Source: Trametopsis cervina (Eukaryota > Basidiomycota > Agaricomycetes > Polyporales > Irpicaceae). From it: a stretch of DNA of 64,000 bases. This document shows, in pieces, positions 55,601-59,702 of the stretch; the stretch's first letter is position 1, and each line of letters begins with the position of its first letter. The translations under genes and the position numbers were made by a program. The stretch lies in the NCBI GenBank assembly GCA_022385755.1, contig MU278373.1, positions 248,001-312,000 on the forward strand, given 5' to 3'. A model generated the notes under the pieces. It was not told the DNA's origin and did no database searches. It saw only the letters and a program-made list of their open reading frames with translations.

Positions 55601-56137
55601 TCGGCGCCTCGACAACCTCTTAGAGATATGGAAGCAACATTGGCTGGATATTGAGATCCAGGTCAAGTAATATGCCGGAGGGCTGTTTGAGGACTGGCAC
55701 CACCGCGTGGGTTGCTCTCGCCGTTTCCTGCGACGAACTTCTCACTCACCGGGTCCGTGCAGAACGAGGCGCTCGCAGAAGAAAACGGCAGCAGCGATGA
55801 CGGCGACAGTGACTATGACTATTCGTCGGATGACGAAGGTGGTGAGGGCGGGGCTGACGACGGCGAGGACATAGAAGCAGACGGGACGGCGTCGGAAGTG
55901 TCGAAACGCGAGCCTGGACGGAAGAAGGACACGCGCCGGAGACTCTCCTCCTCATCGCTGCATGGCTTCCCACCAGAGACGATGCCGATGCAGATGATCC
56001 GCACACCAGCGACCGAAGGCAGAATAAGTTCAATTTGGGGTGCTGTATACATTGTACCGTACACTGTTAATTCTCAGCATCAATCTGTATACATATCAGG
56101 AAAACAAGTGCAATGCTGGCAGGTCGTGATGTGGTAG
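52622..56137 (+). CDS. EF-hand protein with STAND-like helical N-terminal region
   Basis: Many short exons encode a cytosolic helical protein of about 800 aa, of a type I associate with agaricomycetes. The N-terminal part (GDLIASAQGKLDTANTALVKTGA, AELWKASKKLVSDLLAPVRDIVALIDAFADIHPTL, VVVQMELQWHDNEKQIAVVYF, MLFLLADIDPLF) resembles helical headers of basidiomycete NLR/STAND proteins, but no NTPase follows. Then come YLSQQINDAVDTSTRTILLKLDAGPH, RTSVKARVLLDAINTHFRREYLRHQIETGTPHPDAWTLYFLSKIIY, and one EF-hand whose loop DQDSSGFVSVHE has the calcium-ligand spacing. Later helical blocks end in SVMALIYLLLRHHLKIVKLAE and EIWKQHWLDIEIQV. The C-terminal exon is acidic. The exon joining MTHPATQ to GDLIAS is uncertain. 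At 55667 the frame meets TAA just before a family-like stretch, YAGGLFEDWHHRV; splicing gtcaag to gtgcag would skip it. The end after 56017 may be altered by an insertion. Confidence 0.65.
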
Positions 56138-56369
56138 CAGTAAAGGAAATATGAAAAGGTCATTCAGAGAGCGGATTTTTATATGCGGAGAGATGCGTGC
56201 CTCAAAGGGACACCTTCCATGCCTTGACTAACTTGGATGCTGAGGGTTTAGCTCATATACATAGGTTGTATTGACTGTACCGTACAGAGAACGCATGTGT
56301 CACATTGTGACAGGTCGCAGCTTGACCCATTTCTGGAAACGCCGGTTGAGCATCTTAGCAGCCACCATC

Positions 56370-57662
56370 ATGGCCACCACAGACAGCGTAGACCTTCTGG
56401 TGCTCCCTCTCACAATGCCGCCGACACCACCATTTCATGTCAGACTTCACCTAGATAACTACGTCACAGAAATTGCCCGGCTTGTCTCTGAGAGGCGGCC
56501 GAAACTAGGCAGCGTTACTGAATATGAGCTATACAAGGCGAGTGAAGAGCAGCGGCGGCAGGGGTCTCTACATTGACTAGCATACATCGATAGTGTCCGG
56601 GGTTCACAATCGAGCCTGATGACACGTTGTACGGTCGTGCGCAACAGGCAAACGCTGATGGCAAGTTTATACTCTTGAGTCGCATCGAAAGAGTCCGCGA
56701 CCACTTCCCCTTCGTTGCCGACACCGAGATCCATGTATTTGTTGTACCTAGTGAGTTGAGTCGGTGTGTGTGTGTCATATATATCTCATCAACCACCATC
56801 ATGGCCACCACAGACAGCGTAGACCTTATGGTGCTCCCTCTCACAACCCCACCGACACCACCATTTCAGGTCAGGCTTCACTTAGATGACTACGTCACAG
56901 AAGTCGCCCGGCTTGTCTCTGAGAGGCGGCCGAAACTAGGCAGCGTTACTCAATACGACCTATACAAGGTGAGTGCAGAGCAGCAGCGGCAGTGATCTCT
57001 ATATTGACTAGCATGCATCGATAGTGTCCGGGGTTCACGGCCAGGCCTGGTGACACTTTGTACGGTCGTGCGCAACAGGCAAACGCTGATGGCAAGTTTA
57101 TACTCCTGGATCGCATCGAAAGAGTCCGCGACCAGTTCCCCTCCGTTGCCGACACCGAGATCCATGTGTTTGTTGTACCTAGTGAGTTGAGTCGGTGTGT
57201 GTGTGTCGTGCATATCTCATCAACGACCATATGGCCACTACAGACAGCGTAGACCTTATGGTGCTCCCTCTCACAACCCCACCGACACCGCCATTTTATA
57301 TCACGGCGCATCTAGATCATCACATTATGGACGTCGCCCGCCTTGTCTCTGAGAGGCGGCCAATGCTAGGCAGCGTTACTCAATATGAGCTATACAAGGT
57401 GAGTGAGAAGAGCAGCAGCGGCAGTGGTCTCTATATTGACTAGCATACATCGATAGTGTCCGGGGTTCACGGCAAGGCCTGGTGACACTTTGTACGGTCG
57501 TGCGCAACAGGCAAACGCTGATGGCAAGTTTATACTCTTGAGTCGCACGAAAAGAGTCCGCGACCACTTCCCCTCCGTTGCCGACACCGAGATCCATGTA
57601 TTTGTTGTACCTGGTGAGTTGAGTCGGTGTATCATCTGTAATTCCGCTTACTATCGTGGTAG
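56370..57662 (+). repeat. Three tandem 430-bp units, each a Crinkler header module
   Basis: Units start with near-identical ATG exons at 56370, 56801 and 57231 (spacing 431 and 430). Each holds exon 1 (MATTDSVDL, then LVSERRP), a 56-58-nt intron, exon 2 (DTLYGRAQQANADGKFILL, then VADTEIHVFVVP) and a gtgagttgagtcggtgt donor region. Introns are as similar as exons, so the DNA was duplicated recently. Unit 1's intron starts GC (gcgagt) while units 2 and 3 have GT (gtgagt). Exon 2 of unit 1 reads through in frame to exon 1 of unit 2. Unit 3 lacks one base before its ATG, so unit 2 does not read into it. Unit 3 has a diverged patch (FYITAHLDHHIMD). Confidence 0.88.
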
Positions 57663-59265
57663 ACCGTGCACAACCGGAGGAGGAGTACGGAGATGTTCTT
57701 TCAGAGCTTACCCCACTAAAGCGTAAGCTCATTATGACTATGTTCTCTACTATTCCTGATGTTATGGTAGGTCGTCACAATGCTCTTGTCATGCTCAAAG
57801 AGAAGATGGGCATTGACACTGCCGAAGGTGTCCATGACACGCACAGTAAGATCTTTACAGGCAAAATAGATGATAGATACGGACATCCTGTAGCCCTCTT
57901 TCATCCGGCATTGGCCTTGCTCCAATGGCGCCTCCAGACGCTTGATGCTCAAGTCGAGACTGGCCGGGATTGGGATAGAGCGAGAACCACAGAGGGGCGC
58001 CCGGACAAACTAGCGGAGCTCGAGAATGCCCGCTGTTATTTCGACAAGTTTCGCGGTTCCTATACTTCGGAAGCAGAGCTATGCACAGCAACGCAAGGGT
58101 TTTGGGATGGAATCTTTGGTACAATTGACCGAAAGTTCGAGAGGCGTAGTGATGGTGTCACAGGTGGGTCCAGGCAGTCAGAGGAGGGGGTCGGTCAGGC
58201 GGGTGTTGGCTGGGGAAACTACGCCATTTTGGAGCAGAAGCATGTATCTGGATTGCGTGGCGATGCGAGCTTGCAGGCTGCGCTCTGGTATGCCAAGTTG
58301 TGCAACTCTATGAAGGTTCGTACTATTGCCTTGTTTTTGTTAAAGCTAATGCGGAATGCGGGTTGAAGACATACTCGCATAGCAATTTCCCCATTATTCT
58401 TATTGGGAATATGGGAAATGTGCTCGAGGTTTCCATAGCGGTATGCCTTGAGGAAGTCATGGTGGACAAGATCCTTCACTTCGAGATCCTCAGTAGCGTC
58501 CATTATAACAAGACCGTCGTCAAACTCGCCCTGATTGCCTCAGCATTGAAGGACTGCGCCAACGAGCTTCGAGAAGAATACGAATCTCTTACGCCGACAC
58601 TTGGAGATCGGAGACGGATTTGGTTTCCGCCCTCTCCCTCGACGGTTGACCCCTCCCCAAATGCACCGGTTTCAGATGTCAAGTTTACGGGGAAATTGGA
58701 TCGAACGAATCAGCCACTCACCAAGCTCGAGGGTGACAATATCGAAATGCGATCGCTGTACCTTGCAACTTACCATGATCAAGAGGTGGTAGTGAAGTTT
58801 TCAGCCAAGTACGGTACGGACGCGCACCATGCAGTAGCAGATGGGACATATGCACCGAAACTACACTTCTGTGAGAAAGTGATTGGTGGCCAGCAAATGG
58901 TTGTGATGGATCGTGTGAATGGCCAGCGGATGTGTGGCTTTCCCTTGAAAAGTTTACCGCGCAGCGTCTTTGAAGATGTGCAGAAAGCCTTGAAGATCCT
59001 TCACAGCAAAGACATCGTATTTGGCGATCTCCGTGATACAAACGTGATGATCACGACCAGCGGTGACGGCAAGAAGGGGGCCATGCTTCTGGACTTTGAC
59101 TGGGCTGATGCCGAGGGGAAAGGGAGGTATCCGGCTCTGATCAACACAGAGCTCATTGGGCAGGAGTTGGCACCCGATATCAGTGATGGCGGGCTCATGC
59201 ATAAGAAGCACGATGAGTATGCACTGAGGAGACTCGTTTCGCAGTATTGTATGGATACTGTATAG
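57231..59265 (+). CDS. Crinkler-like protein: ubiquitin-like header, REase-like domain, kinase
   Basis: From the third ATG unit, exons 57231-57398, 57457-57613, 57663-58315 and 58369-59265 join exactly in frame to 624 aa. The first ~110 residues form a ubiquitin-like header ending TEIHVFVVP. The middle part has YAILEQKH, GDASLQAALWYAKL and FPIILIGNMGNVLEVSIAV, resembling the PD-(D/E)xK nuclease-type domain of Crinkler (CRN) proteins. The last third is kinase-like: VVVKFSAKYG (Lys), MVVMDRVNGQ hinge, FGDLRDTNVM in place of HRDxxxxN, and LLDFDWADAEGKG in place of DFG. CRN proteins act in host or own nuclei, or in conflict between genotypes; the target here is unknown. There is no signal peptide. 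Two more header units lie upstream and could serve as alternative first exons. The gene lies inside what looks like the 3' part of the EF-hand gene. Confidence 0.78.
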
Positions 59266-59560: not shown

Positions 59561-59702
59561 CCCCGGTGCTGAGGTGAAGATTCCTGGAACCACCGAGAAA
59601 GGCGATGCGAGTCCTGCTGTTAGTAGTGTTAGCACCGCCACGAGCGAACTAGCTAGCGAAGACGAAGCCGTCAGCGAAGAAGAGGACGTCGAAAGTGATT
59701 GA
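59561..59702 (+). pseudogene. Orphan acidic 3' exon, perhaps cut off from the EF-hand gene
   Basis: A 47-codon frame (PGAEVKIPGTTEKGDASPAV, then SELASEDEAVSEEEDVESD and a stop) has clear coding character but no start codon or gene of its own upstream. It follows a good acceptor (ttatattttag). Its phase and acidic make-up fit the interrupted C-terminus of the EF-hand gene: ATEG at 56015 followed by PGAEVK would restore a smooth tail. It could instead be a distal exon of the Crinkler-like gene. I infer, but cannot show, the former. Confidence 0.4.

Follow-up and report, generated by a model that had tools for sequence, protein, structure and literature searches.

Organization of the header array

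Examination of a 64,000-nucleotide stretch of the Trametopsis cervina genome (Polyporales; assembly GCA_022385755.1, 29.4 Mb in 59 contigs), here called the window (contig MU278373.1, positions 248,001 to 312,000 of the forward strand), reveals a predicted Crinkler-type gene in which three header units of 430-431 bp each stand in tandem upstream of one shared body (Table 1, in positions of the window). TRF delimits the array at 56362-57630 with a period of 431, 2.9 copies, 90% matches and a score of 2082, and in a repeat search the copies were spaced 431/432 and 431/430 apart and were 86-95% identical to the reference copies. Every unit possesses its own ATG and is made up of a header exon 1 of 168 nt ending in phase 0 and a header exon 2 of 157 nt ending in phase 1, the latter being directly followed by GTGAGT in all three units. 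All six header exons are open and free of indels; the duplicated segment reaches to about 18 bp upstream of the ATG, and the leader of unit 3 has a 1-bp deletion. A triplication of the header before one Crinkler-type body, as proposed in a preliminary description of this DNA, is supported, and the three units and the shared body exon at 57663 are confirmed, but the first intron of unit 1 has a GC donor and not a GT.

Table 1. Features of the header array, its upstream region and the shared body
Feature	Position	Strand	Evidence or remark
Promoter-like region upstream of unit 1; partner at C26:37875-38106, same contig	56040-56318	+	77% over 56040-56215, 93% over 56290-56318
Short leader preceding the unit 1 ATG, where the duplicated segment begins	56352-56369	+	Resembles leaders of dispersed header paralogs
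Unit 1 header exon 1 (ATG at 56370)	56370-56537	+
Unit 1 intron 1, 56 nt, GC-AG, weak donor	56538-56593	+	Splice-site scores
Unit 1 header exon 2, phase 1 end	56594-56750	+
Candidate linker intron 1-2, 63 nt, phase 1, GTGAGT...ACCACAG; contains unit 2 ATG	56751-56813	+	Donor 42nd, acceptor 51st percentile
Unit 2 header exon 1 (ATG at 56801; from 56814 if linker intron spliced)	56801-56968	+
Unit 2 intron 1, 56 nt, GT-AG	56969-57024	+
Unit 2 header exon 2, phase 1 end	57025-57181	+
Candidate linker intron 2-3, 62 nt, phase 1, GTGAGT...ACTACAG	57182-57243	+	Donor 42nd, acceptor 77th percentile
Unit 3 header exon 1 (ATG at 57231; from 57244 if linker intron spliced); divergent patch at about nt 59-110 of the exon	57231-57398	+
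Unit 3 intron 1, 58 nt, GT-AG	57399-57456	+
Unit 3 header exon 2, phase 1 end	57457-57613	+
Unit 3-to-body intron, 49 nt, weak acceptor	57614-57662	+	Acceptor 3rd percentile
Body exon 3, no Pfam match, proposed REase region	57663-58315	+	Alignment with bodies of basidiomycete kinase-type Crinklers
Body intron, 53 nt, with AAG acceptor; position set by reading frame	58316-58368	+	Acceptor score lower than in any training intron
Body exon 4, kinase-like C-terminus, stop at 59263	58369-59265	+	Pkinase E=1e-5, under Pfam's curated cut-off

Affinities of the body and the headers

Searches with body exon 4 recovered 94 proteins at E<=1e-5, many of them without an organism name; those organisms that are named are presumably basidiomycetes. 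Exon 4 aligns with the PF20147-bearing P0016 at 37% identity (E=1e-51) and with P0027 at E=3.5e-44, and the database listing assigns PF20147 to the exon 4 relatives P0016, P0027, P0084 and P0089, the first three of which were above the cut-off on rescanning. The closest named bodies are those of P0002, P0003 and P0004 from Sanghuangporus (Hymenochaetales), which are 59-62% identical to exon 4 but differ from the present gene in that their annotated sequences begin within the body and lack any PF20147 match at E<=1. Exon 3 is 45-47% identical to these Sanghuangporus proteins and 21-22% identical to P0016 and P0027; its fold model is of low confidence (pLDDT 63), and the REase region is putative. 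The excerpted text of the CRN/CR review (PMC5289972) gives an REase coupled to a kinase in about one sixth of CR C-termini, and by homology the body described here appears to be of this known CR type. Regarding the Sanghuangporus proteins annotated from inside the body, the headers of P0002 and P0004 may be missing or unannotated; P0050 and P0051, more distant kinases of this genus, have a header by the local profile described below (5e-12). The T. cervina genome contains six further kinase-body relatives (on C29, C31, C23 and C4) with 30-41% identity, among which one on C31 has one stop and one near the start of C4 has three.

For the headers, direct searches were negative: 1) the header exons of units 1 and 3, each taken apart, and the 125-aa stretch extending from exon 2 of unit 1 into exon 1 of unit 2 matched 0 Pfam families at E<=10; 2) a homologue search with the 133-aa frame that runs from unit 1 into unit 2 gave 38 candidates, none at E<=10; 3) PF20147 had no match anywhere in the genome, in a search whose controls were likewise silent; 4) hmmsearch of the 94 relatives with header-exon profiles, built from the three units plus a paralog on C4 (C32 being added for exon 1), did not produce a convincing match to a header (lowest E 0.0034 and 0.0053, across 14-16 residues). 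Profile-profile comparison with the headers of 12 relatives aligned exon 2 with their second half (P=1.1e-4, probability 57%) and, weakly, exon 1 with their first half (P=0.083, probability 0.7%), the two alignments being colinear, with the best of 11 body windows used as decoys at 0.12 for exon 2 and 0.19 for exon 1. A comparison with 5 relatives was weaker, at 0.012 for exon 2 and 0.15 for exon 1 (best of 5 decoys 0.09 and 0.47). The headers end in IHVFVVP in all three units and in VHVLVRP in the C4 paralog, which is near the HVLVxxP-like motif said to close the Crinkler header, though one residue shorter than the motif as quoted; in the same excerpted text the CRN/CR header is described as a Ubl and its end is called a recombination hotspot (PMC5289972). 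Given that the header exons alone have no Pfam match and that exon 2 is aligned only by profile comparison, the designation Crinkler-type is, at the level of sequence, well supported for the body and moderately supported for the header.

Relatives of the header are also dispersed in the genome. The one at C4:22972-22599 (minus strand) has two exons, the intron occupying the same position, and its header closes, by eye, with a GTGAG donor in phase 1. It differs from the array in having one header only, followed by an 87-aa open frame without a Pfam match, and body exon 3 has no match at this locus. Relatives of header exon 1 lie at C32:191351-191479, C18:555267-555431 and C18:504783-504866, one of the C18 copies being weak (E 0.1); they carry a similar short leader, and no exon-2 match was found at these C32 and C18 loci. 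The copy at C18:555267 has an in-frame stop and AAG in place of the ATG.

Candidate linker introns and reading frames

The donor that follows exon 2 of units 1 and 2 can be paired with an AG within the first codons of the next header, i.e. in ACCACAG (codons 3-5) of unit 2 and in ACTACAG of unit 3, to give the two candidate linker introns of Table 1. In both cases the AG spans codons 4-5 of the next header and both sides of the intron are in phase 1, so that the header units can be chained in frame like symmetric exons. The donors score 7.4 bits and the acceptors 5.9 and 7.5 bits; the corresponding percentiles refer to 71 ab initio introns of 45-80 nt from the same genome, in a small splice model trained on frame-compatible pairs, by which two other introns of the same gene score poorly (acceptors at the 3rd and 0th percentile). 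These 71 were drawn from a set of 105 introns (median 64 nt, sought only up to 120 nt) obtained with looser criteria, stricter ones having yielded one intron. The linker acceptors are the best of the 5 and 3 AGs listed from 40 to about 125 nt downstream, and an equally good in-frame acceptor 50-75 nt away is found at 3.7% of 17,600 random positions. As the same AG is present as coding sequence in the C32, C18b and C4 header paralogs (not in C18), it did not arise for splicing.

Retention of the first linker leaves exon 2 of unit 1 open into unit 2 (ORF 56594-56995), in agreement with the in-frame passage that had been noted earlier; between units 2 and 3, however, a retained linker ends the frame at a TAG at 57250, which follows the 1-bp deletion in the leader of unit 3, and this passage therefore requires splicing. 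The tandem double header postulated from the first passage was on the right track but too small, the candidate linker introns being able to chain all three units in frame. The GC donor of unit 1 lies at the 4th percentile, and if intron 1 of this unit is retained, translation from unit 1 stops at a TGA at 56574. With all units chained from unit 1, the product would measure 2499 nt, or 832 codons plus stop, in frame throughout; the chained product from the ATG of unit 2 has 728 codons and that of unit 3 plus body 624 codons. Every isoform length that we computed is a multiple of 3, including that of unit 1 joined directly to the body.

Divergence among the units and the upstream region

Over the 324 nt of header exon sequence, units 1 and 2 differ at 26 positions, units 1 and 3 at 41 and units 2 and 3 at 34, and the term recent, formerly applied to the triplication, holds only in a relative sense. 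Per 56 positions of intron 1 there are 7, 6 and 6 differences in the same order of pairs, or 7, 4 and 3 by eye with another gap placement, and this intron is not clearly more diverged than the exons. Amino-acid changes over both exons fall below a neutral simulation (one-sided P 0.029, 0.0064 and 0.0038, the pairs not being independent), while neutrality was not rejected for exon 2 alone (P 0.07, 0.12 and 0.10) or for exon 1 of units 1 and 2 (P 0.22). Between units 2 and 3, 18 of the 34 differences fall within 50 nt of exon 1 (2 of 20,000 shuffles), and those between units 1 and 3 are likewise clustered (19 of 41; 0 of 20,000 shuffles), in contrast to those between units 1 and 2 (9 of 26; 4,851 of 20,000 shuffles). 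This suggests either homogenisation of the remaining sequence or a foreign patch in exon 1 of unit 3. The paralogs favour neither version of the patch clearly: over 16 columns, unit 3 against units 1/2 stands at 8 to 7 for C32, 9 to 6 for C18 and 4 to 7 for C4.

The promoter-like region upstream of unit 1 includes a 15-bp palindrome, TGTCACATTGTGACA, at 56298-56312, whose exact sequence occurs twice in the genome, at this site and in the C26 partner. A search with 56040-56318 found no copy of this region before unit 2 or unit 3. Presumably this region acts as the promoter. Since promoter-like DNA precedes unit 1 alone, a single transcript beginning at unit 1 is favoured over separate promoters. 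A bacterial-type promoter scan was set aside as irrelevant to a fungus.

Relatives with more than one header

We scanned 119 collected proteins with a local header profile built from 12 of them, a header being called at iE<1e-5. It was found in 19 of the 119, with two headers in P0104 and a partly duplicated one in P0100; the two profile stretches of P0019 represent one split header. P0104 (Coprinopsis marcescibilis FA15DRAFT_648623, 697 aa) resembles the array in having two complete headers before a related kinase-like body, and Pfam finds two PF20147 stretches in it (protein E=9.2e-25). Its second header, whose joint lies at the corresponding place, lacks a Met and follows directly upon the end of the first, which is the kind of joint expected from the linker introns described here. 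In its structural model (mean pLDDT 85, with header 1 as the least certain long stretch, in blocks of 43-67), two successive strand-strand-helix-strand units are predicted, the last strand of the first being separated by two residues from the first strand of the next; the 50 matches shown from a fold search with this model are kinase entries and uninformative on the header. P0104, itself a predicted protein, differs from the array in having two headers rather than three, and these are 16% identical (BLASTP), pointing to an old or heterologous pair; it is thus a parallel and not the same event. In P0100 (Psilocybe cyanescens) the second half of the header is duplicated with 73% identity over 45 aa, and Pfam finds one PF20147 stretch, slightly under the cut-off. 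From P0104 and P0100 it would seem that headers have been duplicated in other genomes as well.

The basidiomycete Crinkler kinases P0016, P0027, P0097, P0099 and P0109 share with the present gene a header followed by a kinase-type body, but have one header by the local profile, the PF20147 score of P0099 being under Pfam's cut-off. The excerpted text of the CRN/CR review describes no tandem header array, the word 'tandem' has 0 occurrences in the whole review (PMC5289972), and among the literature matches listed, judged by titles and abstract openings, there were no papers on multi-header Crinklers. A different arrangement is seen in P0105 (Hebeloma cylindrosporum), where half a header (residues 271-327) precedes a Crinkler-type kinase body, and about 270 residues without a Pfam match at E<=1 lie ahead of it; perhaps another N-terminus has been joined there.

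Proposed origin and expression of the array

In light of its sequence organization, we lean towards the view that the array is spliced into multi-header products, of the form header-header-header-body or header-header-body. The ancestor would have been a single-header Crinkler-type gene, with header exons 1 and 2, a phase-1 intron and a body of the REase/kinase type, whose header underwent an intragenic tandem duplication. The breakpoints would have fused the 5' portion of the header-body intron to the short leader that immediately precedes the ATG. The new linkers could then serve as introns, running from the old GTGAGT donor to the AG that spans codons 4-5 of the following header and removing the internal ATG. 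One promoter upstream of unit 1 would then yield the transcript for the 832-codon form; where the GC donor of unit 1 fails, translation could begin at the ATG of unit 2 and give the 728-codon form. We infer that the linker introns are used and that a multi-header protein is made, in which the extra Ubl-type headers would presumably change delivery or partner binding (avidity).

A more far-reaching version of this scenario, which we advance with reserve, is that a triple-header Crinkler arose from self-chaining cassettes, each further copy being spliced in frame with removal of its start codon, so that header number would be freely evolvable and linker retention along with the internal ATGs would give 3-, 2- and 1-header isoforms. 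The arrangement seems better suited to chaining than to a choice among headers. Modular shuffling in progress, as which the locus had been portrayed, fits loosely: the C4 header paralog does precede an open frame other than this body, but the array itself is an intragenic tandem duplication and not an exchange between bodies. The route is a simple one, in which a start codon region can turn into an intron and domain number can grow with the frame kept. The role of the Crinkler header is still described as unclear in the excerpted review (PMC5289972), and a gene able to place one, two or three like headers before one body would offer a natural test of header dosage. If self-chaining is true, header number would set an evolvable dose of a Ubl-like module for delivery or docking.

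Counting against multi-header splicing is the intact ATG of unit 3, which would suffice for a single-header protein. The locus could accordingly be a single-header gene in which only unit 3 plus the body makes protein, units 1 and 2 being decaying duplicates, a 5' leader or a source of non-productive transcripts. This needs just GT-AG introns, and agrees with the change of the unit 1 donor to GC, with the neutrality tests on exon 2 and with introns not clearly more diverged than exons, but we consider it rather unlikely, as decay sits poorly with six open, indel-free header exons and with the deficit of amino-acid changes over both exons, and as a transcript of this kind would have to arise from a promoter within unit 2 or be translated despite two ATGs further upstream. 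It seems still less probable that the units are alternative first modules, with unit 1, 2 or 3 joined directly to 57663 via separate starts or skipping. The three GTGAGT second donors, which are all phase 1 and share the frame of the body, would permit this; however, introns of 912 or 481 nt would be needed, far above the median of an ab initio set that was sampled only to 120 nt, and an intron of 912 nt is unusual for basidiomycetes. Moreover, nearer and better-scoring acceptors exist, and no promoter-like DNA was duplicated, the duplication starting so close to the ATG that the earlier suggestion of a separate promoter for each unit is not supported.

An assembly or copy-number artefact, with a different unit number at the true locus, is conceivable, since tandem 431-bp repeats can collapse or expand in assembly, but we regard it as highly improbable: the units differ from one another at the exon positions counted above and at small indels outside the exons, so that the array cannot be a single copy multiplied unchanged by the assembler, and it lies inside a 427-kb contig. 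The whole gene may conceivably have been inserted as a mobile element into a neighbouring gene. A 7-bp direct repeat, GGTGCTG (56039-56045 and 59565-59571), brackets the Crinkler gene, and joining the flanks continues the frame of the upstream gene for 43 codons with an acidic tail; against this, no terminal inverted repeat is seen by eye in 60 end bases, one other 7-bp repeat occurs in the stretch examined, and a similar segment at C26:37757-38106 crosses the left site, with an interruption. The partner of the promoter-like region within that segment, C26:37875-38106, precedes open frames that by eye are F-box/LRR-like.
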